A stretch of 64,000 nt of DNA. Source: Diprion similis. Taxonomy: Eukaryota; Arthropoda; Insecta; Hymenoptera; Diprionidae. The notes under the pieces were generated by a model. It was not told the DNA's origin, did not search any database, and saw nothing but the letters and a program-made list of their open reading frames with translations. The stretch lies in NCBI RefSeq assembly GCF_021155765.1, contig NC_060109.1, forward strand, positions 893,001 to 957,000. Reading direction: 5' to 3'. The position numbers were made by a program, and so were the translations under genes. Each line of letters opens with the position of its first letter. Position 1 is the stretch's first letter. Of the stretch, positions 25,801 to 55,298 are shown one piece after another.

Positions 25801-28800
25801 CCTCGACCCAGACCTCCAGGGTCTTCGGACAATTATACGGAAGAGAATGACGACAGCGAGAGTGTCGAAGTAGCGATGGAGGATATCGCCGAGGTAACCG
25901 ATCGAAGCTATGAAAACCTGCAAGCCGGTGATGAAGAGAAGCATGAAGAGAGGACGGGAAGTCCGGACGAGTCAAATCAGCCGGATCGGCAAGTCGTAGA
26001 AGTGATAACGTCGATCAGCACGAGGGTATCGGAACCGGAAGTGCGGATTTCGGACTCAAAAATCGGTGGAAGTCAACGAGCGAAGATCGAGGCTCCGGAA
26101 TTTGAAGTAGACCGATCGGAAGAGCCGATTTCTGCCGATTTTAAGAACCCAGGAAACTCCGATAGGAAGATACCAAGTGCTCAGGAAAGCATTATGCTTT
26201 TGGAAAAGTTGAAGCAGTTTGCAAAGGTCAGGACTGACACCTTGACGATATCGACGAAGCAGGATGGCGAGGATCAGGTTAAGGACGATCAGTCGCACGC
26301 TCACTCGACGATACCGAGACCGGAAGTACTGAGCGGGAACCAAGATGAGCAACTGGCTAATTTTGACAAGCTAACTAACCTCGCGACAGTTTTAAGCGAT
26401 GATAAATTCATTTCGAGAAATGATACTAAAGACTTTATACTCAGTCGTGACGGCATCAAGATTCCCACTAAAGTTCTGATCAAAGCCGAGGAAAGGACGG
26501 AGAAAATGCGATCTAGCACCGAGGAAAATCCGGTCGAGAATATCGGTGAGTGATAGATCGAAAAAAATAGTATTAAAAAAACAATAAGATAAATTTTCCA
26601 CCATAGTTTTTCGAAAATACAATTATTCCTTCATTTTTTATTTACTTTGCAATAATTCAAACAAATAATTGGCAAAATGAGGTCAAAAATTGGAATCTGA
26701 AACATATTAGAAAATTGTGTCGAATAAACTGTTATTCAATCTCAAAAATCTCAAAAATCTCAAAATTGATACAACTCGTGATTGTGTATCATCAGAAAAA
26801 AAAAAGAAAACGGTGTGTTATACAAAAAATATAATGAAATATAGACAAATAAACATACATCATTATACCGTTATACATAACATTCATTCGTCACAGGAGA
26901 AACGTGTCAGGGATTTCAATGCAACGATGGTAAATGCCTGCCAGCTGGTGCGAGATGCAACATGCTGAGAGAATGCGCCACGTCCGAAGACGAGTCTAAC
27001 TGTAGATGCGGTGATTTTTTAAAAGCTCAACTACTATACCACAAGATTTGCGACGGTACTCCTGACTGCTGGGACTACTCGGATGAAACCGATTGCGGTT
27101 CGTATTTCACGACTTTATGGTGTAGGTTACGATTATTGAAGGTGTACCGTTGAGGAGCAATTTGATTAAGAAATCCCCCCCATATGTCGCCCCTTACATG
27201 GCACGTAATGTGAATTATTCTGCAATGATGATGAAATCAACTGTCAAATCATTTTGAATTGCTTGTTACCTGATTGCATGAAATTGTCAGACTAATTAGA
27301 GTCTGAAAGTTTGAAATGAGTTGATATCTTGATATCGTTAAAATTAGTTTGTAAAGTTTTGTACAAAATCGTTAGAATTAATGAAATAAAATCAGGGGAA
27401 ATAGTTAAAAACCATTGAAACTTTTAAATCAGTCGAATCACTTGTGAGGTTCCATAAAAAGTAATCATAAGTCGTATCAAATGGTTGAAAATTGTCTTAA
27501 TAAGGTGCTTATAAAGACCCGTTGTACACCTCGAAAACGTGGAGATGCAGAACTCTTATACCGTTCAAGCGATCAGAGTGATACTTGGGCAGTTAATGCC
27601 TTATTTTGGCAAAAAGTAGAGCGTCTTTTTACTTTTTCAAAATTTTGAAAAAAATTTTACAGATCGGTTACCACTCACAGAAATTGGCCAAATTTTCACA
27701 GTTGCACTGAATGGATCCACCTATCCGGTATGATGCCACTCGGCGGTGATAAAACACACATTTTGAGCCCAGTCCCATGAGGTTTGATGGTGAAATGACG
27801 AAATGGCAGCTGATCTGGTTTCCGATTACGAAGTACACCGAAATCTCATTTTGGCGACATTTGTTACCGACATTACGCGCATGCCGGTAATGTATGCGTG
27901 TAATGTCGGTAAAAAATTACCGGCATGCATGAAAGGTCGGTAACAAATGTCGCCAAAATGAGATTTCGGTGTACTTCGTAATCGAGAACCAGATCAGCTG
28001 CCATTTCGTCATTTCACCATCAAATCTCATGGGACTGGGGTCAAAATGTGTGTTTCATCACCGCCGAGTGGCATCATACCGGATAGTTCGATACATCCAG
28101 TGAAACTGTGAAAATTTGGCCAATTTCTGTGGGTGGTAACCAATCTGTAAATTCTTTTTCCAAATTTTGAAAAAGTAAAAAGACGCTCCGCTTTTTGCCA
28201 AAATAAGGCATTAATTGCCCAAGTTTTACTCTGATCGCTTGAGCGGTATAGGAGTCTTGCTTCCCCGCGTTTTCGAGGTGTAAAACGCTTCTTTATAACC
28301 ACCTTAAACATGAAATGAAAAAATAATTCGGGGTGTGATTGGATCGTTGTCTTATTGACCGGAGCCTAAATAAACGCAGAGACTTTTTCTAAACACACAG
28401 AATGGTGCGGGAAGGGTCAATTCGTGTGCGGTAATAGCAGAGCTTGTGTGAACCCAGAAAAGGTTTGCGATGGTCTTCGGGACTGTCCGAGCGGCGAGGA
28501 CGAAAAAAAATGCGCGGCTTTGATCGAGGAGAACATATCTGTCGGCGAGGGTGACGAAGGGGTTGAAATTGCGAGCCTCGAATCAAGGGATGTTGCATCG
28601 GAAGAAGAAGAAGACGATGAAGAAGAAGTTGAGGGGGAGGCGACCACAACGGAGGGCGGGAATTTTTCACAGTGGGAAAAAAATGAGGCTGAAGAGGATT
28701 TTTCGGATATCGGTAAGAACAAAACCGACCAAGAGATGATGGAGTCGTCGGTCCTGGAGACGACGACGTTTCGCATAGTGGTTAAATCCGCGTTGGACGA

Positions 28801-31800
28801 AACGACGACGAGGAAATCGCTGGATTCAAATGATCAGGAAGCGTTGAATTCCGATGGGGGGGTTGTTTCCGGCAGGGAAATAGCAGCGAATTTAAAATCG
28901 GCTGCAATTCACGGGGGAAACTCTTTCCATGCGGTTGATAAAGGCTCGACGAATCATCAGATAAGTTCGGTGATCGGTAATCCGTACGGAAGCGAGATCG
29001 ACGATTATAACAACAAAGGGTTTCTTAGTGTTCGAAAAAACGGCAAGTGGGGCAAACTTTGTCTCACCGGTATGGACAACCTTCTGGAGATGAAAAGGAC
29101 CATTTGGACCATAGAGGATTTGGGACGTGCCGTCTGCAAGGCTATCACTTATCAGTAAGATTAAGATAATCATCTTATTTTGAAGTTTTCTTTTTTTCAA
29201 TCAATTTACCAGCGAAAATTTCCTCAATTACTGAGAGATTCGTTTTTTATTAGAACAATATTCGTTCGAACTTATTTTGGTAATCGTTGGATTTTTTCGT
29301 TTAATTTTCTAAACAGAAAAACTCAATTATAGAAAATTTTTTTTTTATAATTATTCGCTTTTTTCAAATAACGAGACAAAAACATTTTTGGAAGAAAAAT
29401 GTTGCCAATTAGTTCATGAATTGCAATGAGTCGAAAAAATTGCTGAAAAACATATCAACATATAAAAGCGCGTTCGTTTCTGGAACGTGATAAAAATCGG
29501 AAAATCCTAAATTCCCCAATTTTGAAATTTGAAGTGATTTAAACTTCTGAAATTCGAACATAGAAAAGCGAGAATATAAGAAAAGAATGACAAAAGCTTG
29601 ATGAAATGAGTAACTAAAATTGTAAATATAAGCGAAAAGCAATTTTGGTATAAAAAAAAGTACAGTCGAAAAATGAATTATCTATTCACAGGGATTACGA
29701 AAGGGTTGAAAAAGTGAGACTCGAGAGTGCAAAAACGCGGCAACACGATTACTACAGTTTAGTATACAACGAAAAATCGGTGGAAAAAACAAGTCTAACA
29801 TTCAAATCGTCGAACTGCCCAAGCGGAGAGGTTTTAAGGGTGAAATGCAAGAATCTTGAATGCGGTGTTCGAACTCAAACGCCAACGCAGGCCAGGTGAG
29901 AATAAAAAACATAACATTGGATACGTCGAGGAGAAAACTTCGTTCGATTCAACTCGCTTGTTTATAGTAAAAAATGTTAATAACAATTAAGGATTATACG
30001 CAATCGGAATGAAAAATAAATCGCTCACCCAGATGGCCTTTTTATCGGGATTCCAGGATCATCGGTGGCGAAAATTCCGCATCTGGAAGTTGGCCATGGC
30101 AAGTTGCTCTCTACAAAGAAGGTGATTACCAATGCGGTGGGGCCCTCGTAAACGATATGTGGATCATATCTGCAGCACACTGTTTTTATCAGTAAGTTCA
30201 TCATTACAATTCCGATTTTTTCAAAATTCAATACAATACGGTACATCAGCATCAAGTAAAAATATCAAAATTTACAAAGAAACATATCATGCATAAAAAT
30301 ATGACAAAAGTTTCCCAAGTTTGATCCTTTCCAAAGTTTCATGAAAAATGAGAGAAGAAAACAGAAAACATGAGAAAAAGAAACAGAAACATATTTTAAA
30401 TACTGACCTATGTTTTTTTTTTCAGTACCCAAAACGAATACTGGGTCGCAAGAATTGGGACAACAAGAAGGGGTAGTTTTCCGAGTCCGCACGAGCAGCT
30501 GATCCACGTTAATCAGATAATCCTGCACCCAGATTACATCGATAATGGATTCATAAACGATATTGCTCTGCTGAAACTTGAGCGCCCGGTAGTCTTCAGC
30601 GATTATGTGAGGCCCATTTGTCTGCCAAAAACCGAACCAAAAGGTGGCGAAATCTGCAAGGTTACCGGCTGGGGACAATTGTTTGAAGTTGGCAGAGTAT
30701 TTCGTGAGTAAAAAAAAAAAATGGAAGCACTTTATCGTGTCATGAAGAATATTGATGTTTAGAACAATTGGGTGAATAGTAATTGCCGTCACATCAAGGG
30801 CCAGTGAACCCGAAATTCCATCCACGATCTCGAAAGTCATCGCAAACGATTTTTTGCACCGTTTATTCCGTTTGTTTTTCCTAAATTTTGCGTACAATAA
30901 AAATGATTGGTAATTACCTGAACTTTCTCGATCTAGTCCATACTCCGTTCTTCACTCTTGCGCTGTAGATTTTCTATTATTCGTTCTTTCTACTTCTTCT
31001 TCAGCTTTATCTTCATTCTCTCCTTAATTCGCGGAACATGTCGACTGTCTAGTCTCTGGAAACAGCTTGCAGTTCCATATTCCGAGCGGATATGATCTCG
31101 ATGAACCTGTAAATGTACTCGAAAGATGGATGAAACCTTGAATCTCATATATTCAATACAAAACGTTTGTACACTTGGCCACAGTAACGCTGAAACGACC
31201 ATTTTTTTCGACGAGTGAGTTACGTTGGCAATGCCGAATCAGCTCGCAGCGCCACCGTCGGCCGGCCGTAAAGCAGACTCTATATCCGTAAAAGTAACAC
31301 AACTGTCGACTGTTTGTATTTTTAGGTTAGATTCAACGGTCTTGGGTAATGTTACGTTTACAAAGATTGAAGGTTAGCCTGTTCCGCGACCGGCAAGCGG
31401 TGGCGCTGCGAACTGATTCGGTATTGCCAACGTAAACGACTCGTTGAAAAACTTTTCCCATACAGAATTGCTGCGGCCAAGTGTACCTATTCCCTTTACG
31501 TAATTCAGAAAATGGAAAGAGAGCTGTTCCAATTCCTGATCACTTAGGGGTAGCAATATGCAATTAATTTACGATTGCATCAAATTATACACAAAATACG
31601 AAAGTGCACAAGTTTTCATGAGATCATTATTAAGAATCTTCAGTTTTTTTTTTTGAAATATTATAAAAAATTGACGAAAAAGAAACACATATATTATATA
31701 TATATACATTTTGAATCAAGCTGATGATTTTTTCACTTTTTTTCATCCGTGGATAATAATAATCGGAATTTCCTTGCAGCCGACACACTTCAAGAAGTCG

Positions 31801-32632
31801 ACTTGCCGGTCATATCTACGGATGAGTGCCGTAGGAGGACGTTGTTTTTACCACTTTACAAAATAACGTCAGGTATGCTCTGCGCTGGTTTAAAAGATGG
31901 CGGGAGAGACGCTTGCCTAGGAGATAGCGGGGGGCCTCTGGTTTGCCCTGAATCGAACAATAAGTACACCCTGCAAGGTAATTAGCACCTCGGATTAAAT
32001 AAGAAGAAAAAAATTAAGAAACAGTATAACAAAATTCTATTGAAGAAGTGTATTAACTGATTTTTTTCAAAATAATTTGGCCTCGAAAGTAGTCATTGAA
32101 ATATGTACAAAAAGGTTCCTTTAAGGATGTACATGTGTATGGGTCGAAATCGTGCTTTTATTTTAAACACCCGTGTAAAATTTTGAAAACAAATGTCTGA
32201 ATTATACCGAAATTATTTTGCTTTTAGTTTCCCGTGACTTTACATTGAGTCTGACAGTTTCCCACAAGTCATAAATGCAGGATTACAAAAAATAAAAAGT
32301 AGAATAACTCCGATATGGTTCAGACGACTGTTTTCTCAAATTTGACACAGTTATATAAAATAAAAGTAAGGATCATTTGTACAGTTTTCATTAACCTGAC
32401 ACGATTTCTATCTACACACCTGAATATCCTCAAAATGGAAAAAAGAAAAAAAAAATTTGTACTATCGTGTTGGGAAAAAAATTTGAAGGTAATTTGTTAT
32501 CCTGTTTTTCAAGGTATAACGTCGAACGGATACGGATGTGCGAGGCCCGGGAGACCGGGAATTTACACAAAGGTTCACAGCTACGTGCCGTGGATAGAGG
32601 GTGTGATGACAAGCGATGAGTTCACCTCATCC

Positions 32633-32669
<37 letters not shown>

Positions 32670-32785
32670 TGGATTGCAAGGGTCACAGATGCCCCCTGGG
32701 AGAGTGTCTTCCAAAATCGCGTGTCTGCAACGGGTATTTAGAATGTTCGGACGGTAGCGACGAGCTAGGATGCACAATCGACTGA
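3609..32785 (+). CDS. Type II transmembrane mosaic serine protease (SEA-LDLa-SRCR-trypsin-LDLa; corin/enteropeptidase-like)
   Basis: Thirteen coding exons join in phase: 3609-3692, 22688-22859, 23022-23045, 23323-23429, 23581-23818, 24080-26545, 26897-27097, 28401-29154, 29692-29895, 30057-30191, 30426-30703, 31780-31977 and 32514-32785, giving about 1,710 residues. ATG 3609 is the first after an in-frame TGA at 3579. A 57-residue cytoplasmic tail precedes a membrane segment (about 58-84), SEA (about 94-208) and an acidic Ser/Thr-rich linker (209-1030). Then come LDLa-type modules (about 1031-1135), SRCR (about 1300-1417), trypsin (1418-1660), Ser14 and a last LDLa. The activation site is R1417-IIGG. 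Catalytic residues are H1458 (AAHC), D1507 (NDIALL) and S1604 (GDSGGP). D1598 in the S1 pocket predicts cleavage after Arg/Lys. It should be an active, zymogen-type cell-surface protease; the substrate is unknown. Exon 1 is the least certain part. Confidence 0.92.
4888..5520. mobile_element. Foldback element with ~150-bp inverted arms
   Basis: The left arm (about 4888-5055) and right arm (about 5366-5520) are near-exact reverse complements. The left arm contains AACAAAATGTTAGTTTTTGA and AGCCCACTCCAAAGGAC; the right arm contains their complements in reverse order. The outer ends GTGACGCAAAAACACCGACT and its counterpart match too. The 310-bp centre is T-rich and codes for nothing. This is a non-autonomous terminal-inverted-repeat element, and no target duplication was identified. 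Confidence 0.8.
7918..8230. mobile_element. Degenerate transposon fragment with CAGGGTGGCCAC end
   Basis: It begins with CAGGGTGGCCACAAATTTTTG. It then carries repeated motifs of the type TTCCACGACATTTCCAGT and TTTTCCCTGAAATTTTCCAA, and ends in CATTTCCAGT next to a long poly(T). Elements with a CAGGGTGGCCAC terminus and such TTTCC-rich bodies are common non-autonomous transposon remnants in arthropods. The matching right terminus is not visible, so I treat it as a truncated copy. Confidence 0.45.
10555..11110. repeat. Clusters of TCGATTAATCGA-type palindromic minisatellite
   Basis: At 10555-10760 and again at 11005-11105 the motif CTCGATTAATCGAG, or its half CTCGATT, recurs every 12-30 bases, separated by short T-rich spacers such as ATTTTTCAAAA. 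Intervening DNA (10761-11004) is plain AT-rich sequence. The repetition is direct and visible. Whether it is a decayed minisatellite or a cluster of protein-binding sites cannot be told from the sequence. Confidence 0.75.
11726..12020. mobile_element. MITE-like inverted-repeat element
   Basis: The left end carries GGGGATTCCATGTCAACTC and then TTCRCTTCACGATTTTTTATACGATT. The right end carries AATCGTATAAAAAATCG and then TGGAATGCCTCATG, which are the reverse complements with some divergence. The two arms are about 60-80 bp and enclose about 130 bp of AT-rich, non-coding DNA. It is a non-autonomous DNA transposon by structure, flanked on the left by (TA)n. Confidence 0.65.
13124..17863 (-). CDS. 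Probable small nested gene, 64-residue protein of unknown function
   Basis: The two exons are 17863-17833 and 13287-13124 (- strand). Exon 1 lies in a GC-rich island, begins at the first in-frame ATG in a CGCCATG context, and encodes [10 protein letters not shown] before a GTAATG donor. Exon 2 follows a TTTTTAG acceptor. It joins in phase 1 and reads through a GC-richer, protein-like stretch ([20 protein letters not shown]..., [18 protein letters not shown]) to TAA. Total length is 65 codons including stop. The N-terminal half is hydrophobic and could be a membrane or mitochondrial segment; the C-terminal half is charged with a CxxC. I do not recognise the family. The gene lies wholly inside the protease's first intron, on the opposite strand. 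The exon pairing over a 4.5 kb intron is an inference. Confidence 0.5.
14789..14957. mobile_element. 169-bp MITE with 22-bp perfect terminal inverted repeats
   Basis: The ends are TATGTGGCATGCCCGTAAAC(CG) on the left and its exact reverse complement on the right. The interior is a 42-base poly(T) run and about 85 bp of other sequence. The terminal TA could be the target duplication of a Tc1/mariner- or Harbinger-type element. Overlapping open frames on both strands here are only the inverted repeat read twice. Confidence 0.9.
14963..15192. mobile_element. 230-bp MITE, family with TTTTTTACGGTATGGGCAT ends
   Basis: The left end TTTTTTACGGTATGGGCATT is matched by the inverted right end GATGCCCATGACGTAAAAAA. 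An internal perfect palindrome, CGGAATAAAG followed by its complement, would form a hairpin. A second copy of the right two-thirds lies at 55636-55797, which shows that this is a dispersed family. It starts six bases after the previous MITE. Confidence 0.85.
16971..17151. mobile_element. Foldback element with ~57-bp arms
   Basis: The left arm 16971-17027 (TGGGTTTTTGGGGTC..., ending ATTCAAAATG) is repeated as its reverse complement at 17088-17151, with few mismatches around a 60-bp spacer. It has no coding capacity. It is a small non-autonomous inverted-repeat element. Confidence 0.85.
21321..21371. repeat. (GAA)n microsatellite
   Basis: About 17 near-perfect GAA/AGA units form a purine-strand tract in the protease's first intron. 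Confidence 0.95.
24080..26545 (+). other. Single 2.5 kb exon encoding the extracellular linker of the protease
   Basis: This exon supplies residues 209-1030 of the serine protease. It has a visibly higher GC content than the flanking introns. It opens with a Q7 run and Ser/Thr-rich blocks ([13 protein letters not shown]), typical of O-glycosylated stalks. It then becomes strongly acidic, with a [12 protein letters not shown] stretch and a proline/arginine patch ([12 protein letters not shown]). No Cys-rich or catalytic module is visible. It is flanked by phase-1 introns, as extracellular modules often are. Confidence 0.85.
27495..28308. mobile_element. ~814-bp foldback element in protease intron 7
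   Basis: Two arms of about 390 bp (27495-27895 and 27912-28308) are reverse complements at roughly 90 percent or better by eye. The ends are TAAGGTGSTTATAAAG and its complement. The centre is a short GC-richer stem (ACCGACATTACRCGCATG). It contains no transposase frame. It lies between the exons for the second and third LDLa modules and would form a long hairpin in the pre-mRNA. Confidence 0.9.
31169..31487. mobile_element. ~320-bp inverted-repeat element in protease intron 11
   Basis: The left arm (about 31169-31275) begins GTACACTTGGCCACAG and contains TTACGTTGGCAATGCCGAAT. The right arm (about 31380-31487) is its reverse complement, with scattered mismatches. The interior is a short AT-rich spacer. 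It is non-coding. Confidence 0.85.
32627..32668 (+). repeat. Coding TCATCG repeat (Ser14)
   Basis: The last protease exon contains alternating TCA/TCG serine codons, 14 in total. They form the hinge between the trypsin domain and the C-terminal LDLa module. Both codons encode Ser, so the repeat can change length without shifting frame if the change is in multiples of three. Confidence 0.95.
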
Positions 32786-36786: not shown

Positions 36787-39700
36787 TTAACCCAGGGAGT
36801 CGACAGCGGTTGTCGATAGGCCCGTCCCACTTATGGTTGTTTTGAATTGCTCGGGTACCGGATACTCCGTCTGTAAGATAAGGAAAAAAAAAAAAAAAAA
36901 AAAACGAGATTAGAAACAATATTGAAAATTTTTATGCATAAGGAAGAAGTAACAGTTTCATCAAAATTCAATACTCACGTAATCCCCATTTCCTTTCGGT
37001 ACCATAACGTTCATTTCGCTAGATTTGCTAGAAATAAGCTCGACTTGAAGCGATTCTGAGTTCAGGTACATCTGGCAGCCATCAGTCTTGTCGATAGAAA
37101 TGGTAGGTACTTTTCCCAGAACCTGTAACGAAACCAAATAAAAAATGGTGATCAGATTACTTTTCTTTACGGTGCAATTCTTTTTTTTTTTTTTTTTTTT
37201 TTCCCCCACATTAACATTTTTCATATCCGTTGTGATACTTGTCGTCTGTACCTGTCATCGCATGTTCACATTTCGTCGCTATGCAATGTGTGACATTATT
37301 TTTTCTTCCGACCTTCATTTGTCTGTGAATAAAGCAACATGTCTCCGGCGTAAAAAGACGTCAAAGAGAATCACAGTTTTTTATCTATTTTATATATACA
37401 CCGTATTAGATAGTTTATCTAGAATTTATGTGATCGAGCTTTTATTATCTGTTTTTATACACATGAAATTGTATTGTTAAGGAAATAATCTTTAGAAATG
37501 AGGTGGAACTTTGGTAAGTTTTAAAATGAACGTGTATAGAGCAATGTGACAAGACAGGTTGTGCAATGAAAAGTAAAAGCACACGAGTTTAACAGCCGCT
37601 ATAATCGATCGAGTACTGATATAATTCAATTGCTTAATGCAGGAGGTAATTTAGAACCGGTTCGAATGATTTGTGAATACGATTGGAAGGAGTGTCCGAT
37701 AGCAGTTGCCAATTACGTATGGACAGAGATAGTTACCGATGTTGTCGACAGTCTGACAAGGGAAATACACTTGTGGCGCGTAAGCAATATTTGAATAATT
37801 TCTTTCCTTCGATCGATTAATTTAACTGACATGAAAATTACTCAAGATATTAGCCGCGATGCTGTTGTGTTCGATGCTGTTTCACACTGTATACCACAAG
37901 ACGAGATGGTTAGACAAAAGTGGCGAAGACACGCTGACCAAAGACGATTTGATAAAAGTCGGCTTTAAAATGCAAGATTTGGAACTAAAGATCAACATTT
38001 TGACGTACAAAATGCAGTACGGAACTTGGCCGATGCCTCACGAAATTCCTACGCCTAGTTTGAACCAGTTAAGAAACGTAAAATTAACACTCTCGAACAC
38101 GAGTAGACGGGACATGTGGACGAAGCATCATTTGCACGGGTGATTGATATTCAAGACTTGATAAAAAAAAAAAACGTTTTTTCTTCAAGGAGTAAAAATA
38201 ATCTAAAAAGATGTAAAATTTTTGCAGATACATATCAAAGTGTATCCAAAGTTCCGAGGATGATAAATCGACTTATAAACACTCGTCGACCGATGATCAC
38301 GTGGAATTGAAAAACGACAAACTGTTGTCGCAGTTTTTGAACCAAAAAAATCTTTACGACCCGGAAAAGTATTCTCGAAAATTGAAATTACTAGGCAGAG
38401 AATATGGCTGCAGGGATTACGAGAGACTCGTGAGAACCGCGGACGAGTGCAGGAGGTATATGGATGAGATAAACGAGAGCAATAAAAGTCTCGGATTGCT
38501 CGACACTTCGTCAGAAGTCAGTGATCAGCATTCGATAAAAGACATATACATGAGAGTTGAGGTAGATATACAATAATTATTATGATGATAATATATTTCC
38601 TCTTCTCGCTTAGTTCTTTTTCTGCTAATTCCCATTTATCGTCTCGTCCCTAAATTTTAGTCGGAGTTAAATAGTCGTCGAAATTTTTTAATGGATCCAA
38701 AAAAGTGGGAAGAAGATTGTGAGAAAAAGAACCAGAAAAACAGAGACGTAGGAGTAAGCGAGTTTACTACGTTAAACTATCGGCAAGAAGAGGCAGCTCT
38801 TTCTACTGCCAACAAAGACCGCCAAGCCTCGGAGGATTCTAAAGCCGTATCGAAGTATTTACCGCCGGGTTTAAGCATAACGTTTTTGTCAGACAAATTC
38901 AAAGGTGTTCCATCGAGAGATAAATTCACTGCAAACAACTACGGCGTGAGAAATGGTAAAAGGATTAAAACAAGAAAGAACGAATCGTTGAACAAAGTCA
39001 AAGATAAGCTTGAAAATTTCCACGACGTCAAACGTAGCACAGAAAATTCCAAATCTTTGAGCAGTATCGAGGGAAGTACGAACGGTAAAAAGAGATCGGA
39101 GATTGTCATGCTGACTGAAACAAACAGCGCAAGTAATTCGTGCAATCGAGACTGGAAGTACGGAGAAAACAATGGAGAGATTTTGGATAATAGAATGCAG
39201 AATAAATTTGGAATTTTTCAAAATGTGGTTTCTACCAGCGCTAACGAAACCAGCGAAGCGGAGTTTGATTCAAAGCCAACCCCAAGAGAAACTCTAGCAA
39301 CTTCTAAAGAGAAAATGAAGGGGAAAAATTTAGGCCTACCGTACTGCGAGCATGAAGGATCTAAAACTAATCGGTCAAACAACCAGAATAAAAAAACTAA
39401 AAGTCTAGTTCTAACGAAGACAGCATCGAAAGTTGAAAATTCAAAGACTGAAAGTGATTCAAGTGCGTCGTTTAAAACAAATGCCGATTATACGCAAGAA
39501 GATGTGGAATATAGATGCGGGCAATTTAATTTGAATGTGAATCAACAGAGACATTTCGATACAAGTGAAAATACTGCTGGTACAAAGTCGGTTGACATGG
39601 CAAGCGATAGTATAAGCATGGAAGATAATATAAACTTGAAAGTGAATAGAATTGATTTCCAGAAAGCGATTACCAAGGCTGAATTGTCGCAGAGAAATGA

Positions 39701-42700
39701 AAAACAATTTCATGAAACAGCGATGGAGACTGACGAAGATCCGACGTATGTTTCACAGACTTCAAGCCAGACGGAAGTTTCCAAGGACAGCGATACGGAT
39801 GGAAAATCGACAACAATGCTGCTCAGAGAGGCATTAGAATTCAAAAAAGCATTACTGATGCAAATTCGTATGGAAAACGAAGAGATAACGAGTGAGGAAA
39901 AATGTGGAACAAATGAAAACAGCGAATGTGACTCCGACGATACAGCAAAATCCAAAACTGACAATCATTTCCGATCTAAGATACTAGATATTATTTCTGA
40001 GGAACAATCTGCCGGCAGTTCAACGGAAAGAACAAGCCGAACTTATATACTTTCGCGAGCAATAAGCGAAACAAATATTTTGGAAAAGGCCGGTAAGTTT
40101 CTTGGAGAAAATAATGATGCTAGGAATTTGGAAAGTAGTAAAAATGTTCCAAATTTCGAGTCCTGTGGGGATTCGAAAAATCCGGTCACCACAACTTCGT
40201 CTGAATACTTTAGCGCGAATAATGTAATAGACAATGAACATGTAAGCAGTCAAAAAATAAATCAGTGCGTTGCGGACGGAGATGGAATCAAAGAAATGGA
40301 AATATCGTACAGCAGAGAAACGCCTGAAGATAAGCTGAAATTAGATGTAGAAAAAAGCGATGAAATCAATCAGCCAACCAAAGATTTAGAATTAGAAATG
40401 AAGAAAAATGAAGCTGAAAAAAAAAATAGATGCCATGAAAACAGCGATATTACTGTGAGAGAAAAAAGCGTAGATATTTGTAAGATTCAAAATACAATTA
40501 TAGGCACAAACTTTCCTATACCTGAGAAAGAAATTAACGAAAGTAGTAAAAGAAATGTTACAGAAAATAATGCAAATAACAATGAACCGTGGGAAAATTC
40601 AAGTGAGAAAATAGAAGAGCTGATAGATTCTATAACCGAGAATGCAGAGAGCAGGAAAGAGGTAGCAAAAATAAAATTTTTCAGAAGTTCGAGTTCGTTA
40701 GATTCTGAACAAGCAATAACGTGGAATTCAGGAAGCCAATCTTCCAGTAATGATAGTATAATACAGTTTGTAAACACACTGGCAAGTATAGAATCAGAAA
40801 GTATCGACGCTATAGCAGAGCAGAAGTTGCTGATGCTAAGCTCAACGGATTACAACGATAGAAGTTTTGCATTAGCTCATGAAAATTCGCATGGAAAAAA
40901 AAGTCCCAGTCTAGTTTCGCTTTTGGAAATAAATGTGTGCGAACGTAGCGACGAGATGGCAGAAGAACTATTGGAGAAGATCGGAGATCCAACAACTTCT
41001 CAATTAACGAAGAATCCTGAATCAAAGAAGACGAATATTACGCAAGATGCGAGTTGTTTTAATTCAGACAGCGCGTTAAATTTGGATCAGCAAAAGTTAC
41101 GGAGAAACCAAAATATATTAGGTACATTGAAAGGACTTGACGCTTTGACAAAGCCCCTCGATTTTGACGAATGTAATTCAGAAAGATGTGAAAACGACAA
41201 AGAAGCCAGGCCCGTATCAGAACGCAACATTAACTCGGCAAAGAACACGGAAAGTTTGGCCAAAATGAAAATTGAAATGTCGAAAAATAGTGTTGAGAAT
41301 TATTCAGCGGCTCAAAACGCATCAACTTCGAGAAGTTTTGATCGTGCTGAAGAAAACTACGAATCTCTGATCCATGTGGAAGAAATCAAAACACTTGAAG
41401 CAGATACTCAGAATTTAATCTTAGGAAATAAGTTTGACGTAATTGAAAAGAGAGAAAAGCAAGCTGATCTGAGTAAAACAAAACTTGAGATAATCGAAAT
41501 TCCGAATATTGAAAGAAATTCTAGAAGTGACAACTCAACTGTGGAAAACAGTAAAAATAATGACGAATATACAAAATGTGAAGTACAATTGCAGAGCAAT
41601 AAGAAAAATGATTTGGCTAGGAAAAAGAGTCAGTTAGCAAAATTGAGTATAACTAATTTCAGTACAGATACATCGGAGTCTTATTTCGACGTGAGCAACC
41701 ACGATTTCGCTGTATCGAGTATAATTTTAGCATCCCAAAATTCGAACTGTAACAATAATCGAAAAATTGGTACAGATAGTAGCGATACGTCGTCCGTTTA
41801 CGTCGACGCCAGAGATAACTCTTCGAATATGCATGTTAATTTATCAAAGAACGATCAAACTGTACCAACAGATGCCAGTAACACTGAGTCAAAACATGAA
41901 TCTTTAACAAAAACGCAACTGCTATCAAAAGGTCCGTCAAGTATACCGTCAAATGGTCGCGCTATACAGAATCAACAAGATCAATCTCCGGAGCTTGAAG
42001 ACAGTTCACTTGGCATAGCGAGCGGCAGCGATTCAAATCAAAATGTTTCAAAATGTAGCCTGAATCTAAATCTGGAAAAATTGTCTCCAAAATTGAACGG
42101 TACATTGCGCAAGGGTAAAACAGCGTCTAAATCATGTATACCGGTTCTGAAATCACGAACTGAACCTCCAAAAAGAGCTAAATCAATGGAGAGCAAAGCA
42201 CGTTCGCAAAGCCCTATCCGTAGATCGAGCACGCCACTGAGCCAGCGCTCTGAAAGTAGTCGTGCAACGGTATCGACTAACGGAACGAATGAAAACGAGA
42301 GACAAGTAAAGCGAATAATTTCTGGGAGTAAAAAATCGTTGAATGGGAAACAATCGTACACGCTGGAACCTAGCAAAAAGGAGACTAGAGAAGAACGCAC
42401 TGCGGAAAGGTGCAAAACTGTGGAATCCGTGTCGACAGAATTGTCTGCCATGCCAGAAAAATGCAATCTCTTAGCTGCTCAAGGAAATTTGACTAAGGAA
42501 TGTACAGTTATATACATAAATATAATATCAGATGCGGATCGTAACGAAATGCAAGTTGCAGATGCGAAGGAATTGATTAAATACGTGAACGAACAGGAGG
42601 CGGTGTTGATTGCAGAGACGGTAGACTCAAAGAGTCAAAGTTTATCTCTGAAACACATGATTTCCAATCCATCTAATGAAGAAGTAAGTTCTAAGGTAAA

Positions 42701-45700
42701 TCCAACTTTGGATGAAAATCTATTTAGAGATTTGACGAAAGAATTGGTTGACGAAAGTGAGCCACTTTTGACGACGAATAAAGGTGTGGAAAATAATTCT
42801 GAAAGAATTTTACCAAAGCCTAAAAGTGTGATGAAAACAGCGAACAAAAGGCTGTCAACGAGTACATTAGAACTTTCAAATTCGAATAAAGTGGAGCGAA
42901 GAGAAATGGAAATTTTGGCAAAACCGTCAGTTAAAAATACGAGCACATCGGTATCAGATTTTCCCGATGCATCGCTGGAGAAAAAAGGCTTGTTTTATAA
43001 TCCAAATAACGAGGTGTTCGACATATCGAAAAAACACGTTAAGAAGGAGCAAATAATTATCTCAGAGATGTTAAATTCAGATACAAATATCTATGAATGT
43101 AAAAAAACGCACAAACTCTTCAATAAACTTGGGCTCGGCTGTCAAGAGCAGCCGGAATAAATGTTTCGACTCGTAAAAGCGAGTCCTTACACATCGAACA
43201 TCATAAAAATTCTCAGTTCACGTTATAAACTTTTTTATAAACGTCTATTTTTATTCTTTTTATCAGTTCTGTACAACAAGTGTTTGTTCGTTAGAACGAA
43301 TATGTTGCTTAATAATATACGATGTTAAAACTAATCGGCATATTTCAATCTTTGTGTCTGTCTATTTGAAATATTAAACATCGTTTTCTAAGATAAGCTT
43401 CTACTTTCAACAGAATGTCAATACAATAAATCGATTCTTTAAAAGCCGACTGTAATGCCAAATGTGAGAATATTACAAGCGACTTGGCGATAACTCGTTG
43501 AAATAACTAGTAAACAAAAACTTTCTCTTGCAGTCGCGATAGCAATAATTATCGAAATAAAATGTGAAACCAACATACCTGCATCTGTACACTTTGGCAG
43601 TTAACGAACTCGATGCTGGACACAAGAGAATCGAACACAACCGATGTCTTGCGGCACGAGTCCAAGACGATAGAATTCACTTTTCCTTTCACTATCAGCG
43701 TGCTGTCCTCGCAACGATAAACGTAGACAACGTTATTCATCTCGGGATTTTCAATCAGCAAATTCTTGTTGCCTTTTTGATACTCCTGTAACAGATTGCG
43801 AATTCAATTTCAGTCGTATTCCGAAATGCGCACTTCAATTTATGCTAGTTTAACGTGTTTTTATGGGTTTTGCAAAAATTCTATGATGAAAACGATACGG
43901 GGAGAAGTTATTTTCTTCTAATAAATGCCCGTATTACTATTGTTTCAAGTATAAGCCAATCCACAATCAATAGAATAAATCTAGTCAAGTATTGTAAATC
44001 GATGACATACAACGAGCCACTTCTTGCCATCGCGTGCAAAGACTGGTGGTTTGTCGATAGGCTTTGCAGGTTTTCCAGAGACGGAATTAGCCTGTCCGCT
44101 AGCAGGTGCCTTGAAAGGAGCGGGTCCAGTTCTGAGTCCAGGATTTTTATGCGTCTGCATATCAGAAGTAACTTTCTTCAAGCCTAAACAGACAGTGAAT
44201 CTACGTAAGTAAATTTCTAAACAAGTTCTACGCAGTAAAGTGGGCAAAAAAAGAAGAAGAAATATATTATTCTCGATTGACAATGCGACGATTTTATTCT
44301 TACACTTACTTCTGGTGATACCTTCCCCTTGATTTATTTGGGCGAAAAGTGCGCTTCTATCTTCTCCGAGATCCGCAGCAACGTCTCCTACCGGCATCGA
44401 AGGCGGCGGTGGTGGTGGAGCACCAGGGGCAGCGGGAACTGCTGGCGTGCCGGTCTTGGCCCAAACCAAACCGGTCGTGTGGTGCTGGCGAACGTATTGC
44501 TGAAGCTCGGTCAGAGTTTGTACCCAAGCTTTGCACCACTCGACGTGATTCTTGTCCCTGTTGAATAAATATTGATGTACAAATCTATGGAAAAAAGGCA
44601 GAAGAAACTCGAAACTTAATCATAATGATCGAACAAACAAATTTACTTTTCTTTCCAGTCTTTTAAGACACGGTTAGTGTAAAATTGTCCCGCGTCATTC
44701 ATTTCCTTGACATAGGGTGCTGGCGTTGGGGATACGGCGACCCATCCGAGCGCCGGGATGCTTTCGCTGATAGCGGAGAGATGATTGAAAAATGAAGAGC
44801 CTCTGTTCTTTTCTCTGAACTCTTGTATATCCTGAATTTGAGTCGAAGTTGGAGCGAGGAGAGCGACTTGTTGCGACTGGTTTGCTGGAGCAGGATGTGA
44901 AGCGGCCGTTTGGATGAACTGCAGCTGAACTCTGCGAAGAGAAAATAAAAAAACAAGAATAGAATGAAAATTCATTGTAACGAGATATCCTGAATTTAAG
45001 AAAAAGAAACAAAAAAACTTTACTAACTGGAAAGCTTTCTCGACCAGTTTGCTGTGCGTCAAAACATCGCCACCGATCTTTTGACTCAGTTGTAAATATT
45101 GAGAAACTGGCCCGGCGATGATATCTTCATAGCCTGCGACAGACATCTTGGCTTGCGGCGATATTGAGGTCGTTTGATTAGCTACCGGAGATTGATTGGC
45201 AGGAGATGGCGTTTTTGTTTGAACGGCGGTTTCCTGGGTCTCTGCTCCCGCTCCAGGAACTCTTTCAAGACGCCTTGTTACGTTCTCCAAACGCGTTACA
45301 AGATCCTCAAGCTGTTCCTCTCTGCTGTCGGGTTCGCAGCCTGTAAAAAAAAAAATAGAGATATTACGAAGTTAATAAATAAATAACGAGTCATACGTAG
45401 CAAATTTTGCATACATTAAAGATCGAAGAGAAAAATAAGCTAGAACTGCATAGAACATGAAAATTAGACATAATTATTATAAACGAGGTTGAAGTTAATA
45501 ACGTTAACGTAACGAAATGTCAGGTAAAAATATCATTATTGGGCAATTTCAGAACGACTTTCGAGGAGTTGTTTTTTAAAAATACATACATATGCATGAG
45601 TATGTTTTGTCTTATAACGGTTTACCTTAAACAATCCTAAAACCATGAAGAAACGATTTTGCCTAAACATCAATCGTTACAATAACGTTGTTAACTTCAT

Positions 45701-48700
45701 TCTCGTTATTATATCATATCTATGAAAGAATCGGTAAATTGCATTCCTCATTCAAGACGACGATCGAATGTACAACAATAACATTCCAATCGACCGGTGC
45801 AAAAGAATTCATATCGACTTCTAGAATTATATAATCCAGCAGAGGTTGGGATTGAATTTCAACGGATATTGCAGCAGATAAGCTTGATCCAATTACTTGA
45901 CAATGACGTGTTTTCAATCGAAACGAGCGTTAAGTGAAAAGGAAAAATAATAAGGATAATAAATATTGAAATTAGTCCACAAAAAGTGAGTAGAATAGTT
46001 ATTAACGATGAGTCGGACGTAAAAATTTCAAAGATTGGCACGGCTGAATTGTAGCAAACGAAAAAATAAAGGTGAAATTAGGCAAAAAACAATATTTTAG
46101 TGAGTATATAATTTTTGCAAATCAATTGTTATGCATTACATTGGAAATCTGATTCTACTGGTTATGTAACAAAAATATCATAATTCTGGACACACCTCTA
46201 TTCACTTTCCAGAATCGACTACTAGTGAGCAGGCCAACTAAGATATCTTTACGGATGATACAAGATGCCAGAATATACCAATTCTATTCTTAGATAAGCA
46301 GCAAAAAGAATGAATTCACGCATGCAATGGATTGGTGTAGGCGTAAGTTAGCACACTTATAGCTTTACACTAAATTCATAGATGACTTATAATTGTTGGT
46401 GAATAATTTTTTTCATTAAACTTTCAATCAAGTATCCTAAATTTAATTCCGTTTATGCATTTGTAAAGTTTAATCGATCTAATATATTCCATGTATTCAT
46501 TCCACCTGTTTAGTCAAGTTTTTTCTATCTTACTATTATTTTCACGGAACAATTATTTTCCACAAATATAATATTTATTAGACTGTATCAAAAAAATGGA
46601 CTATTTTTTTTTTTTGAAAAACATACTGAAAATATTGTTCAGGATAACGAAAAAAGGCGGCGGTTAAAATGGGAGCTCTTAATTTTAATACTAAGAAGTG
46701 CCTCATCGCGATTTTCTACTTTCCATAAGAATAACATTGCAAAAATGGTTCTTGCTCCTTGCGATTTTTATAACTAGATAACGACGCGTCGTACAGAAAA
46801 TTCGTAAACATGTTTTTGTAGGAAATTGAACGTTGTACAAGAAAGGTGTCTTGTCATTTTACGATAAATCTATTCTTTCAAAAGTTATTTGAGGTCAAAC
46901 ATTAACAAAGGACCTCAAATAACTTTTGAAGGAGTAGATTTATCGTAAAATGACAAGAGACCTTTTTTGTACAACGTTCAATTTCCTACAAAAACATGTT
47001 TACGAATTTTCTGTACGACGCGTCGTTATCTAGTTATAAAAATCGCAAGGAGCAAGAACCATTTTTGCCATGTTATTCTTATGGAAAGTAGAAAATCGCG
47101 ACGAGGCACTTCTTAGTATAAAAATTAAGAGCTCCCATTTTAACAGACGCCTTTTTTCGGTATCCTGAACAATATTTTCAGTATATTTTTCGAAAAAAAA
47201 AAAAAAATAGTCTATTTTTTTGATACAGTCTAATATTTATACTACAAAATGAACAAAGTAGTTCCATAATTATGGAATAAGCAAACTTATTGAATTTCCT
47301 CGATTCTTGAATATGGCTTGAAAAAACATCTGGATAATGATTATCGTAATTTAAAAAATGCAAGAAAATAATAATTAGCTTTTATACGATCCGGTGAAAA
47401 CATCAATGACATGTAACGCATGCATCCATTTAATGAATTATGATTTATTTCCATTCCCCTAACCGGCGTGCACTGTTGGTCCTAGTGGATCAAATCGAAC
47501 TCTATGTTCGGAAGTGTTTTGTGCAGCTTCGAGCAAGTCGGAGAAAAACCTGTGCCTGCGAAGCGCTAATTCATCCCTAGCTACCGGCGTGGCAGGCGGT
47601 TCTTGCATTCCGGCGCATCCCTCCGACGTGTTATCGGTCTCTTCTTGGGAAAGCCATCTCGTCAGTGGCGATACTCCTTTTTTATGTCAAATGCGTTCAT
47701 TTACACTCAATTTATACTTCAGTGAGACGATTAAATTACAGCTCAATTCAACTAACGGCCTTCGGTGCTCGTCCGCGATTTTTCCTCACCCCCAAGGGAA
47801 ATTACGATCCTTCGTTATCTCGACGCTGTTTGTATTTTTTCCCAAAGGAAAAAACAAGCTTCGTTAGCCGGTTGAATTGAGTTGCAATGTAACTCTGTTC
47901 GAATGCGTGTGAAGTTAAATTTGCTTTAAATTTACAGTGAATAAGTAAGAAAAAGCGGTGTAAAGAAAAAGCTTTCCGCTTCTCTATTTCAAAATTTCAA
48001 TTTCTCAGCATAACAATCGATTGGGACGAAAAAAAAAAAAAAACCCGTGAATAAAAATGAAAGATTTAATTGTAAAGAAATTCAACTTTATAAATTCACA
48101 AATTTTTCTTTTCATGGTAACTGTTTTAAATTTCTTTTCATTTCTTTCGTCAAATACCTGGCAATGATTTCTTATTCAAATTATTTTCTATGGAAGGCGG
48201 TCCAGCCTCAAAAACAGAGTCGTCTCCCTCCTCTTCGGGTCCATCGTCAATAGTTCTTTCGATATAAGCCGCAGCTCCGTACAAAAAGTTCTTATGCGGA
48301 ATCGGTGCAGTTTTATTAGGCGACTGAGAATGCGGTGAATACAGTAATGTTTCTAAATTTGGCATCTCCTGCGGAACGACTGTCGAAGCTTTATTTTTAT
48401 CGTCAATCGTATCGGATGCATTTATTTTAGTTTCGCGTAGATTATCATCATTTTTGGATCCGACGGTCAGATTATTTGCCTTGTTTTTTTCTTCCGGCTT
48501 ATCGCAGAGACTTTCTTTCCCTGAATCGTTGCTTGATAACTTTTCCTTGCTGTTATCGTCGTTCTTTTTTGTTACACAACGATTTTCTACCTCCTTAGCT
48601 TCGTTAATCTTACTCTGCTTTGATTTCTTCTCCTTTTTTGATATCTCATTATTCGCCTCCTCTTTGTTTGCTTTTTTATTACACACGCAGCATTTAAACA

Positions 48701-48701
48701 T
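36787..48701 (-). CDS. capt: Adenylyl cyclase-associated protein (CAP/capulet), long isoform
   Basis: The exons (- strand, in order) are 48701-48158, 45340-45028, 44931-44647, 44557-44310, 44183-44011, 43785-43579, 37122-36979 and 36870-36787; all phases agree, giving about 665 residues. CAP recycles actin by speeding cofilin-driven disassembly and recharging ADP-actin. Visible in order are the coiled-coil oligomerisation motif ([14 protein letters not shown]), the helical folded domain ([20 protein letters not shown]... [11 protein letters not shown]... [12 protein letters not shown]), a polyproline run ([13 protein letters not shown]), a WH2-type segment ([18 protein letters not shown]) and the C-terminal beta-helix ([12 protein letters not shown]... 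[18 protein letters not shown]... YPVPEQFKT). The 181-residue first exon is specific to this isoform and starts [10 protein letters not shown]. The intron before exon 7 hosts an antisense gene. Confidence 0.96.
37498..43160 (+). CDS. Nested gene in CAP intron: large low-complexity protein of unknown function
   Basis: The exons are 37498-37513, 37643-37779, 37847-38139, 38228-38561 and 38661-43160. All splice in phase, giving about 1,759 residues. The 16-nt first coding exon (MRWNF) is inferred from its GTAAGT donor and matching phase. The first 250 residues look folded: a Trp/Cys-containing start ([18 protein letters not shown]), one hydrophobic helix ([17 protein letters not shown]) that could anchor it, then charged helical sequence. 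The rest, in one 4.5 kb exon, is Ser/Asn/Glu/Lys-rich and probably disordered. It includes a basic Ser/Pro/Arg patch ([20 protein letters not shown]) of a kind seen in microtubule- or RNA-binding proteins. I recognise no family. An alternative is that translation starts at an internal Met. It lies entirely within the CAP intron 37123-43578, on the opposite strand. Confidence 0.8.
43425..43430 (+). promoter_or_regulatory. Likely polyadenylation signal of the nested gene
   Basis: AATAAA lies 265 bases after the stop of the nested gene and before the CAP exon at 43579 on the other strand. This placement would keep the two mature transcripts from overlapping. Confidence 0.45.
45491..45699. mobile_element. 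MITE with GAAGTTARTAACGTTAACG ends (copy a)
   Basis: The left terminus GAAGTTAATAACGTTAACGT and right terminus ATAACGTTGTTAACTTC are inverted repeats about 209 bp apart. Related copies lie at 51687-51855 and 52068-52200, with an end at 61731-61752. It sits in the CAP intron between the shared second exon and the alternative first exons. Confidence 0.8.
46579..47232. mobile_element. 654-bp foldback DNA transposon with 8-bp target duplication
   Basis: The arms of about 320 bp begin TAGACTGTATCAAAAAAAT and end with the exact complement ATACAGTCTA. They are nearly perfect reverse complements around a short centre. The element is flanked by the direct repeat ATATTTAT at 46571-46578 and 47233-47240. 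An 8-bp duplication is typical of hAT, P and Merlin elements. There is no transposase, so it is non-autonomous. Related hairpin sequence occurs at 57531-57650. Confidence 0.93.
47464..47608 (-). CDS. capt: Alternative first coding exon of CAP (isoform starting [13 protein letters not shown])
   Basis: Reading from ATG at 47608, this exon encodes 48 residues ([20 protein letters not shown]... [14 protein letters not shown]). It ends in GCCG|GTTAGG at 47464, phase 1. The shared CAP acceptor at 45340 restores frame and gives ...[13 protein letters not shown], for a protein of about 532 residues. No polypyrimidine tract precedes it, so it looks like a first exon rather than a cassette. GC content and amino-acid composition are clearly coding-like against the AT-rich surroundings. 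The frame is open upstream only as far as a TGA, so this ATG is the first available. Confidence 0.7.
48158..48701 (-). CDS. capt: First coding exon of the long CAP isoform ([10 protein letters not shown]...)
   Basis: This exon encodes 181 residues and ends AAATCATTGCCAG|GTATTT. Its phase-1 end joins the shared exon as ...SLPGCEPDS. The N-terminus has three cysteines within six residues followed by a Lys-rich stretch ([19 protein letters not shown]). That composition is seen in palmitoylated peripheral membrane proteins; membrane attachment is my inference. The rest is acidic and Ser/Asn-rich, probably disordered, ending in an acidic patch ([18 protein letters not shown]). Confidence 0.85.
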
Positions 48702-49739
48702 TGTAACAGATTATACGATTATTTATATTCTTTGTACGAAATCAACAGGCGACTTTTTGTACTGATTATGCATACGCATATATATATATATATTGCAATA
48801 GTATAACGGATTAACAAATTTATTTACATAATAGATTTAAACAACAAGTTTATCTTCATAGGTATTATTATTCAATTGAATATAATAACAACGTCAATCG
48901 ATAAAAATTCTATCAATTGTCAGTTGTTTGAATTGAAATTACAGTTTAAACTTGGTTTATTTTTAGTACCATTTCGATTGATTAAAATAATTATCGAACG
49001 CAGTGTTAGCGAGATTTGAAAAAATTAGGCTATCGATCGTAAGAACATATTCCCGGTAAAACGATTAACAATAATCTCGGCTTTTTTTAGCGTTATCTTT
49101 TGATTATACTTATTTACCTAAACTTTCTAATCTCGTCTAATCAATACTCTAATATTTTTGGCAAAATACAGGAACACAGTTAGTTGAATAAAACGTAATA
49201 CCGAATATATTTATCATATATATTAAAAATATTTATTATCGATTAATAACGACGATGTTAAAAATCACGAAATAGTAAGTATATCAAGAGTCAAGGTCGA
49301 TCCAACGTTTGAATGAAATCAAATCAAACCACCTCAAGTGTATTGCTACAGTTCATCAATGGGAGGGAGATTTCGATCAACGGTTAGTTGATTATCTACT
49401 GTAAATTAAAAGGATGATAACATCGAGGTTCTTTTTTTTTAAAAAAGGTAAAAATTATTAATACATGTAAAAGCACAGGAACCTCGTCTTTTTTCGTCGC
49501 AGTCGTTTATTCTCGAGGATCTATGTCTAAACACAATTCACATCGACATCTTAGTGCTTTGCCGCTCCCCGTCGTCGTCGCCGTCGTCGGTGAAATTGAA
49601 AAAACGAGACGAAGTATATTTTAGAAAGGTTTAAAAAGACGATGCATCGATTAGTTTTCTCCAAATATTATCATCGTTATCGTTATTTATCTAAGTTTAG
49701 TAGCACCCGTAGCACCTAAGGGTGTCGGAATTTAGAACA

Positions 49740-53180: not shown

Positions 53181-53924
53181 GCAGTTTACTTTGTAAAATT
53201 TAATATGAATTCACTTCAGCCAAAGCTATTACTGTACTGACTCTCTCAGGTATTTCTCTAGACCCTATCAGCGAGACCGTAAGCAATTCAGAGAGTACTT
53301 TACATGATGTAAGAAGATAAGGATAAGATGTATGCAAACGAAGACGGCGATTAAAAATACCCTTTAGGAGTACAATTCCAAATTCAATACCTTTTGGTAG
53401 AAAATACATGACTTAAATTCCCGACCCCTTGGTTGGGCTTGATCGTTTCTTAGTGGAATGCCCCATATGTACGCCAATAAGTGCATGTCATATGTCTGTG
53501 TTCGGAAAAAGAACGACCGAAGGTGATGGAAATTCTTGTTCGAACTGACGATTTCGACGGTGTCAGAAATATGACAGATAATATATTTCGGTTCCCCGGG
53601 CCTGGATCGTATTGATATACGGCTGGAATCAAAGCCTTTTTTATCTATAAACTTACGAAAATGATCAAATGTCGAATTTCGTCATGAGGGGAGAGAAAAG
53701 ATCACGCATCAGCTCGCGTGCATTTATTATCAGTCTTGTTTTTCAGTGAACTGTGCTCAACCTTGATAAATTATAGTTCCACGAGTCCCCTGGGGGCGGG
53801 AGGCAGAGAGGGAAGAAGTAGAGTAGGGTTCTCGACACTCCGCAACTTTCAAATATTAGACAAGAATTTGTTTGTCGGTTCAGTTATTAGAACAACTTGG
53901 ACTCGCGCAGACGGCAGGATTAAA

Positions 53925-55298
53925 ATGCATCTACAAATCGAACTGTTTAGTGGTGAACTGTTGGACCTGATGCGAAAGGTGTACGAGAATCCGAATATTG
54001 GCGAAATGGTAAAATTTGATGGCGTAACAATGCCAGAGCAATATGAAAAGTTGGCGGACGCCGTTGAGAACTTCCAAGTTCGCGACGACGATATCTGGGT
54101 CTGCAGCTTCCCGAAGACCGGTGAGGATGAGGAAGTTTGCAAACTCTCGGACAACGTGACTCAATCAATTCTGATTCCCGTCAATTTTCAACAGGCACAA
54201 CTTGGACGCAGGAAATGGTTTGGTGCATCGCGAATAATTTGGATTACGGACAAGGAAGAGTTCCTCTGACGGACAGGTTTCCTCAGTTGGAGTAAGTTCG
54301 AAAATTCTCCCAATTGGGTTCAATTTACTTCATAACAGCCGTGTTTTTTGGTTTGTACAGAGTTTCGATGCATTCTGACTTCCCTGAAATAGTGGCGTCC
54401 AATCCTGACATCCAGATACCTGAAGCAGTCGTCGACAGTATCAAGTATATAGCTAATTTACCCAGCCCTCGATTCATTAAGACTCATTTACCGTTCCATC
54501 TCCTTCCGCGACAGCTCAGAACCGGGGTGAAGAAGCCAAAAATTGTTTACGTTGTTCGCAACGCCAAGGACACTTGCATCTCTTTCTATCATTACCTTAG
54601 AACCTTGGAAGATCTGCAAGGGAGCTTCGAGGACTGGTGTAATCTCTTTCTTCAAGACGCTGGTTCGTACGAATGATCCCTGCATTACTCTCACTTCGCA
54701 TACTTCATGTATTAATGATTTACTGGCATGTGAGTTAAAAGACAATCATCTTGGAGACGAAACTGTGAGTTTTTAAACGGTTGTCCCAATTTCAATGCAT
54801 TTCAGTTATGTATGGACCATTCTGGAAACACGTGCTTGGTTACTGGGAGAAGAGAACCGAAGGGAATCTGCTCTTCTTGAAGTACGAGGACATGAAACAA
54901 GTAAGACTCGCCGTTTTGTCAGCTACACTCCCATTGAATTACTACGTTTACTGTTTTATCCTCACGTCCAAATTTATCCACTTATTGATAATCCGATTCA
55001 ATAGGATTTACCGGGTGTAATAAAGAAGACTGCGACATTCCTCGGGAAGAATTTTACCACGGATCAGTTGTTATCCCTGACCGAGCACTTGAGTTTTGAG
55101 AACATGAGAGCAAATCCAGCTACAAACAACGAAGATCTCATTCGTAGAATTAAGAAAGTGACACGATCGACAGTCGACGGAAAATTCATGAGGTGTGGTG
55201 AGATGAACCAATGGAAATTCGAGATGAGTCCGGATATCATCGAACGATTCGATCGGTGGACGCGAGAAAATTTGAAGGGAACAGGCCTGTACTTTTGA
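53925..55298 (+). CDS. Cytosolic sulfotransferase, copy 1
   Basis: The five exons are 53925-54120, 54195-54291, 54361-54662, 54806-54900 and 55005-55298, encoding 327 residues. It transfers sulfate from PAPS to a hydroxyl or amine of a small molecule; the substrate is unknown. The 5'-phosphosulfate loop FPKTGTTW (K64) is split by intron 1. The catalytic K138 and H140 lie in IKTHLP. The 3'-phosphate site RNAKDTCIS has R164 and S172 with the family's usual spacing. The C-terminal motif, usually RKGxxGDWK, is here RCGEMNQWK (R293 onward): Lys is replaced by Cys, and the second Gly and the Asp are lost. The start is the first ATG giving a normal SULT N-terminus; an upstream in-frame ATG at 53718 gives atypical sequence. 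Frames running on past 54120 are intron read-through. AATAAA follows at 55387. Confidence 0.92.

Follow-up and report, generated by a model that had tools for sequence, protein, structure and literature searches.

A five-exon gene nested antisense in an intron of CAP

We analysed a stretch of 64,000 nucleotides from the hymenopteran Diprion similis (assembly GCF_021155765.1, contig NC_060109.1, positions 893,001 to 957,000 of the forward strand), here called the window and numbered from its first letter, and focused on a gene on the plus strand at 37498-43160 that lies within one intron of the minus-strand gene encoding CAP. CAP, the adenylyl cyclase-associated protein, is an actin regulator, and the CAP exons flanking the host intron (37123-43578) encode its C-terminal domain (best PDB match 1k8f, E=1.8e-47). 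Once exons 1-5 are joined, the nested gene reads open through 1,759 codons up to its stop, with an in-frame TAA at 37486-37488, 12 bases 5' of the ATG in exon 1. The distance of the coding sequence to the ends of the host intron is 375 bp on the 5' side and 418 bp on the 3' side, and ATTAAA/AATAAA hexamers are present 3' of the stop codon, still within the host intron, at 43373, 43425 and 43556. The entire coding sequence thus sits inside one intron of another gene, which makes it a nested gene and agrees with the first-pass annotation, a reading made from the letters of the sequence, which had described a complete five-exon gene antisense within one CAP intron. Its further statement, that a gene with introns is no simple retrocopy, also holds: the model contains four inferred introns, with lengths of 129, 67, 88 and 99 bp, which a processed retrocopy would lack. 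The joins listed there did not include the third one (38139/38228, GT-AG); shifting it by one base (38140/38229) would give an identical protein but no GT-AG intron. The coordinates of all features are collected in Table 1.

Coding signal and splice joins

The nested frame looks like a genuine protein-coding gene. Exon 5 is open for 1,499 codons. When the host intron was simulated in 300 Markov copies, the longest run without stop on the plus strand of each copy had a mean of 95 codons and a maximum of 224. By a codon score derived from 1,898 codons of other stretches in the window that are recognisably coding, the claimed frame ranked top among the six frames in all four exons scored (exons 2-5), and lower values than in the exons were obtained for the four introns and both flanks in all three plus frames; the score penalises stops and thereby favours any open frame, so that part of the contrast between exons and introns reflects openness itself. 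The GC content at third codon positions (GC3) decreases from 0.58 in exon 3 and 0.52 in exon 4 to 0.36 in exon 5, a sharp drop at the giant exon, the first 150 codons of which show a value of 0.44.

Splice joins were ranked among all frame-keeping GT-AG pairs by a splice matrix. Joins 1 (37513/37643), 3 and 4 (38561/38661) each rank first, among 21, 58 and 66 pairs, respectively. Join 2 (37779/37847), which brings in the hydrophobic helix described below, is the least certain join of the five-exon model that we retained. We preferred its acceptor at 37847 over the one at 38069 because the stretch between the two, taken whole, scores like coding sequence: positions 37847-38068 are open in frame with a GC3 of 0.58, and of 1,309 overlapping windows of non-coding sequence free of stops, one matches their codon score. 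The acceptor choice at 37779 / 37847 / 38069 makes a soluble isoform possible.

The N-terminal region

Residues 49-67 form the most hydrophobic stretch of the protein, with a best 19-residue Kyte-Doolittle mean of 1.53 being marginal for a membrane helix. Single-sequence AlphaFold2 models predict helices at residues 53-75, 83-109 and 123-145 for exon 3, with a mean predicted local distance difference test (pLDDT) score of 59.0, and five helices for exon 4 with a mean pLDDT of 50.5. The N-terminal region had been described as looking folded and containing one hydrophobic helix; the helix is present at the hydrophobicity given above, whereas folding is weakly supported because of the low pLDDT of exons 3 and 4.

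The disordered tail and its short linear motifs

Residues 261-1759, all encoded by exon 5, are predicted to be disordered by charge-hydropathy in nine out of ten blocks and are compositionally biased, with an entropy of 3.96 bits. Repeats in this region comprise ten direct and five inverted matches, all two-copy and 20-33 nt long, which we read as chance. The description of about 1,500 low-complexity residues from a single exon is therefore right as far as bias and disorder are concerned, but the term low-complexity is overstated given this entropy and repeats not exceeding 33 nt.

FFAT motifs (two phenylalanines in an acidic tract) are defined by an E-F-F-D-A-x-E-like core that follows a tract of acidic or phosphorylatable residues within disordered sequence, with a consensus and a phospho form carrying Ser/Thr at position 4 (PMC7610837). 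Four imperfect cores of this kind are found in the tail. By a penalty scheme based on this consensus, three sites score at or below 2.0 and four at or below 2.5, the next best having a penalty of 4.0. Whole-tail shuffles contain on average 0.07 and 0.24 such sites, respectively, and the observed counts were matched in none of 500; block shuffles of three sizes likewise did not reach the observed count in any of 500 each. The best penalty is 3.0 in the reversed tail and 4.0 and 6.0 in two other reading frames of the window. All four sites are preceded by a Ser/Thr-rich stretch, and Ser/Thr residues within and upstream of the tract were suggested to help binding to VAP (PMC8759595). The excess of FFAT-like sites is the strongest clue to a possible function, but it is a post hoc one.

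For SxIP motifs the context rule (PMC4834103) asks for a basic residue among the preceding four, the absence of acidic neighbours and a disordered, basic, Ser/Pro-rich stretch. As we read it, SSIP at residue 1353 and SCIP at residue 1418 both conform, with no Asp or Glu from -4 to +8 of the Ser; SCIP has a Glu at +10. Two or more context-passing sites occurred in 12 of 2,000 whole-tail shuffles and in 29, 12 and 18 of 2,000 block shuffles, and the reversed tail has none. Apart from the SxIP and FFAT classes, the scan revealed no excess over shuffles at 0.05 for LC8, KEN, D-box, NPxY, PxxP, 14-3-3, S/T-P, CDK, CK2, PP1, nuclear localisation signal (NLS), LC3-interacting region (LIR), YxxPhi, dileucine, C-terminal signals and two further patterns. 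N-glycosylation sequons are rarer than expected, with 20 observed versus 29.0.

Search for relatives

The first-pass annotation recognised no family and proposed a profile search of the N-terminal region. Run on residues 1-260 against Pfam, this search gave a single match, CNOT11 with E=0.2, below the cut-off, and exon 5 gave no Pfam match. PDB sequences contain no match at 0.001 for residues 1-260 or exon 5; at the weakest limit, residues 1-260 match phosducin-like protein (0.33) and obelin (0.65) and exon 5 matches GRB10 (0.91). As for a viral or bacterial origin, four pattern stretches in viral contigs and nine in prokaryote contigs were inspected, none encoding a relative of residues 1-260 in a search sensitive to close relatives only. 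The absence of a recognised family is thus borne out within Pfam, PDB sequences and the viral and prokaryote contigs; being an absence from Pfam and PDB sequences, it does not establish that the family is new, and other insects probably have orthologues. Among the matches listed from the open-access literature, none described a gene nested in an insect CAP.

Other genes in the window

A sulfotransferase gene (PF00685) is tandemly duplicated on the plus strand at 53337-55637 and 58145-60440, with 94.7% identity over ~2.3 kb. At ~22595-32782 (plus strand) exons of a large serine protease encode LDL-receptor class A repeats, pieces of a trypsin domain and an 836-residue Ser/Thr-rich frame; from its layout we take this protease to be nudel-like, a DUF1986 match being below the cut-off. 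The beginning of a Par-3/bazooka-like gene (PF12053, E=1.4e-27) is located at 63530-64000 (plus strand) and continues past the end of the window. On the minus strand, 48153-48710 carries a frame of 186 residues, Cys-rich at the start and with a body rich in Lys, Glu and Asn, without Pfam family at 0.01, the product of which is possibly lipid-anchored or a piece of a longer gene. Nothing in these neighbouring genes speaks against an insect origin of the DNA. RNA families gave no match at gathering score in the whole window.

Table 1. Features of the nested gene and its host intron (positions in the window).
Feature	Position	Strand	Basis
Coding exon 1 (ATG)	37498..37513	+	too short for frame scoring
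Coding exon 2	37643..37779	+	top frame of six
Coding exon 3, with hydrophobic helix and heptad segment	37847..38139	+	whole exon: top frame of six
Coding exon 4, predicted helical region	38228..38561	+	top frame of six; low-confidence model
Coding exon 5, disordered tail (residues 261-1759) and stop codon	38661..43160	+	1,499 open codons; top frame of six
Host intron of CAP, 6,456 bp, enclosing the entire coding sequence	37123..43578	-	exon junctions and CAP identity
Candidate polyadenylation signals, ATTAAA 43373 and AATAAA 43425	43373..43430	+	hexamer match
Candidate membrane helix, ~residues 52-68	37847..37897	+	Kyte-Doolittle mean 1.53 (49-67); helix 53-75 in low-confidence model
Heptad run L86-M107, candidate coiled coil	37949..38014	+	seven positions at 3-4 spacing
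FFAT-like core EYFSANN, residue 775, phospho type	40203..40223	+	penalty 2.0
FFAT-like core SYFDVSN, residue 1267	41679..41699	+	penalty 2.0
FFAT-like core VYVDARD, residue 1306	41796..41816	+	penalty 2.0
FFAT-like core DFPDASL, residue 1693	42957..42977	+	penalty 2.5; unnoticed until scan
SxIP site SSIP, residue 1353	41937..41948	+	passes context rule as we read it
SxIP site SCIP, residue 1418	42132..42143	+	passes context rule as we read it
Basic Ser/Pro-rich patch around SCIP, residues 1400-1465	42078..42275	+	17 K/R, 3 D/E, 21 S/P in 66

Discussion

We tentatively propose, well aware that it may turn out otherwise, that the nested gene encodes a membrane-anchored scaffold of an undescribed family, the cytosolic tail of which would tie an organelle to the endoplasmic reticulum (ER) via VAP and to growing microtubules via EB1. 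The product would be a single-pass membrane protein, beginning with a short segment before a likewise short hydrophobic anchor and continuing with a possible coiled coil, a small helical region and a cytosolic tail of ~1,500 residues. Judged by eye, the protein does not begin with a hydrophobic stretch and its helix is flanked by more basic sequence on the C-terminal side; from this and from the motifs present we infer that the tail would be cytosolic. Dimers may form through the heptad segment. Phosphorylation under the control of kinases would probably switch on the FFAT-like motifs, which lie in Ser/Thr-rich stretches and would have the ER protein VAP as their partner; the partner of the SxIP motifs, one of which lies in a basic patch, would be EB1 at the growing ends of microtubules. 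The N-terminal helix would sit in a membrane other than the ER, the outer mitochondrial membrane or another one being a guess, and the outcome would be an organelle tied to both the ER and microtubules. That the gene represents an insect family of membrane proteins combining a phospho-regulated FFAT set and SxIP sites on one long disordered tail, so that an organelle is coupled simultaneously with the ER and with growing microtubule tips, we consider unlikely.

Several observations weigh against this proposal. The anchor would be a helix of marginal hydrophobicity that hangs on the weakest join: join 2 ranks 13th of 75 frame-keeping pairs because of the poor acceptor at 37847, the weakest of the four, and the top-ranked pair for this intron uses the acceptor at 38069, which would remove the sole hydrophobic helix; moreover, within 37847-37957 a different plus frame outscores the claimed one (0.15 versus -0.04). 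Both structure models, of exons 3 and 4, are of low confidence. The heptad run, with seven positions that shuffling of residues 69-150 reproduces 5 times in 1,000, is suggestive at most because 56 of 1,000 whole-protein shuffles also reach seven, making it not unusual. Both motif classes were spotted by eye prior to scoring and 26 patterns were scanned, so that the SxIP excess would fail a strict correction, and [ST]x[IL]P in its broad form, with the context rule set aside, shows no excess (P 0.29). The FFAT penalty scheme is our own and was devised after three of the four matches had been seen, a lone site at or below 2.0 is present in 34 of 500 shuffles, and the cores deviate from the consensus, with an acidic residue at position 1 in two and at position 7 in one of the four, Phe at position 2 in one and Tyr in three, and Ala at position 5 in three. 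Finally, predicted FFAT motifs may fail, as co-precipitation of GSK3beta with VAPB was independent of the predicted motif (PMC8759595).

Not far short of an even chance has the explanation that this is a fast-evolving nested gene, expressed for example in testis or neural tissue, with a generic disordered scaffold tail, in which the motif matches are coincidental and the anchor, if real, is used otherwise. It would account for the low-confidence N-terminal models, the GC3 falling to 0.36 in exon 5 and the post hoc identification of the motifs, and nested genes in Drosophila show a divergence in testis expression about twofold above that of unnested genes (PMC13343718); what it leaves unexplained are the four FFAT-like motifs, a number reached in none of the 500 shuffles and not in the block shuffles either. 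If instead the acceptor at 38069 is used, which outscores 37847 by the splice matrix, or if the helix, with a mean of just 1.53, is part of a folded domain, the product would be a soluble or cytoskeletal protein without anchor, and the SxIP patch would make it a microtubule-tip protein only. This we regard as improbable, since the stretch 37847-38068 has an open frame, a coding-like score (1/1,309 windows) and a GC3 of 0.58. Still less credible, with only a slight chance, is a division into two transcription units, with exons 1-4 ending within intron 4 (~264 residues) and exon 5 forming a single-exon gene that starts from a Met near 38691. The sharp shift in GC3 between exons 4 and 5, the stop codon that the frame of exon 4 meets a few codons into intron 4 and the early Met in exon 5 speak for such a division, whereas the first rank of join 4 among its 66 frame-keeping pairs and the length of intron 4 of merely 99 bp argue against it.

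Among known systems, PTPIP51/RMDN3 and MIGA2 are membrane-anchored, ACBD5 is a tail-anchored acyl-CoA-binding protein, and SPATA31/FAM75 proteins have an N-terminal hydrophobic segment from small exons followed by one giant disordered-protein exon. With SPATA31/FAM75 the nested protein, lacking a Pfam match, shares the layout only. The proposed membrane-anchored tether would resemble the phospho-FFAT organelle tethers PTPIP51/RMDN3 and MIGA2 in combining a membrane anchor with a phospho-FFAT-type motif, but it has no Pfam domain, a far longer disordered tail, extra SxIP sites and no sequence relationship that we found. The motifs of these tethers, FFAT-related and in tandem in RMDN3, are those given in PMC7610837. 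It shares an FFAT-like motif amid phosphorylatable Ser/Thr with the peroxisome-ER tether ACBD5-VAPB (PMC8759595), from which it differs by the hydrophobic segment near the N-terminus and the absence of any domain found. STIM1, an ER plus-tip protein, would be comparable as a transmembrane protein in which SxIP links a membrane to EB1 (PMC4834103), with one SxIP site and known domains, in contrast to the two sites, the FFAT-like set and the lack of a Pfam domain here. By working principle the phospho-FFAT tethers and STIM1 appear to be nearest, an analogy unsupported by sequence as regards family membership: neither Pfam nor PDB sequences gave homology to RMDN3, MIGA2, ACBD5 or STIM1. In a search of the open-access literature, the terms SxIP, FFAT, VAP and EB1 came together in a single paper, a review of disordered interactions.

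The antisense nested arrangement itself is ordinary among insects. Nested genes make up ~6% of genes in Drosophila, frequently in opposite orientation (PMC3786989), and ~10% of predicted genes overlap positionally in two mosquitoes (PMC3689595). A close parallel is 2mit in an intron of tim2, likewise a complete, intron-bearing gene on the opposite strand within one host intron and encoding a disordered Ser-rich region; 2MIT differs in being a leucine-rich-repeat protein, and its nested position has been retained in Apis and in species of Drosophila but not in four Lepidoptera (PMC3786989). Should the motifs be coincidental, the gene nested in CAP would be one among many nested genes of modest interest. 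Should they be real, a large insect gene without recognised domain would gain a testable function, and VAP-based contact sites and EB-based microtubule capture would be united in one protein.

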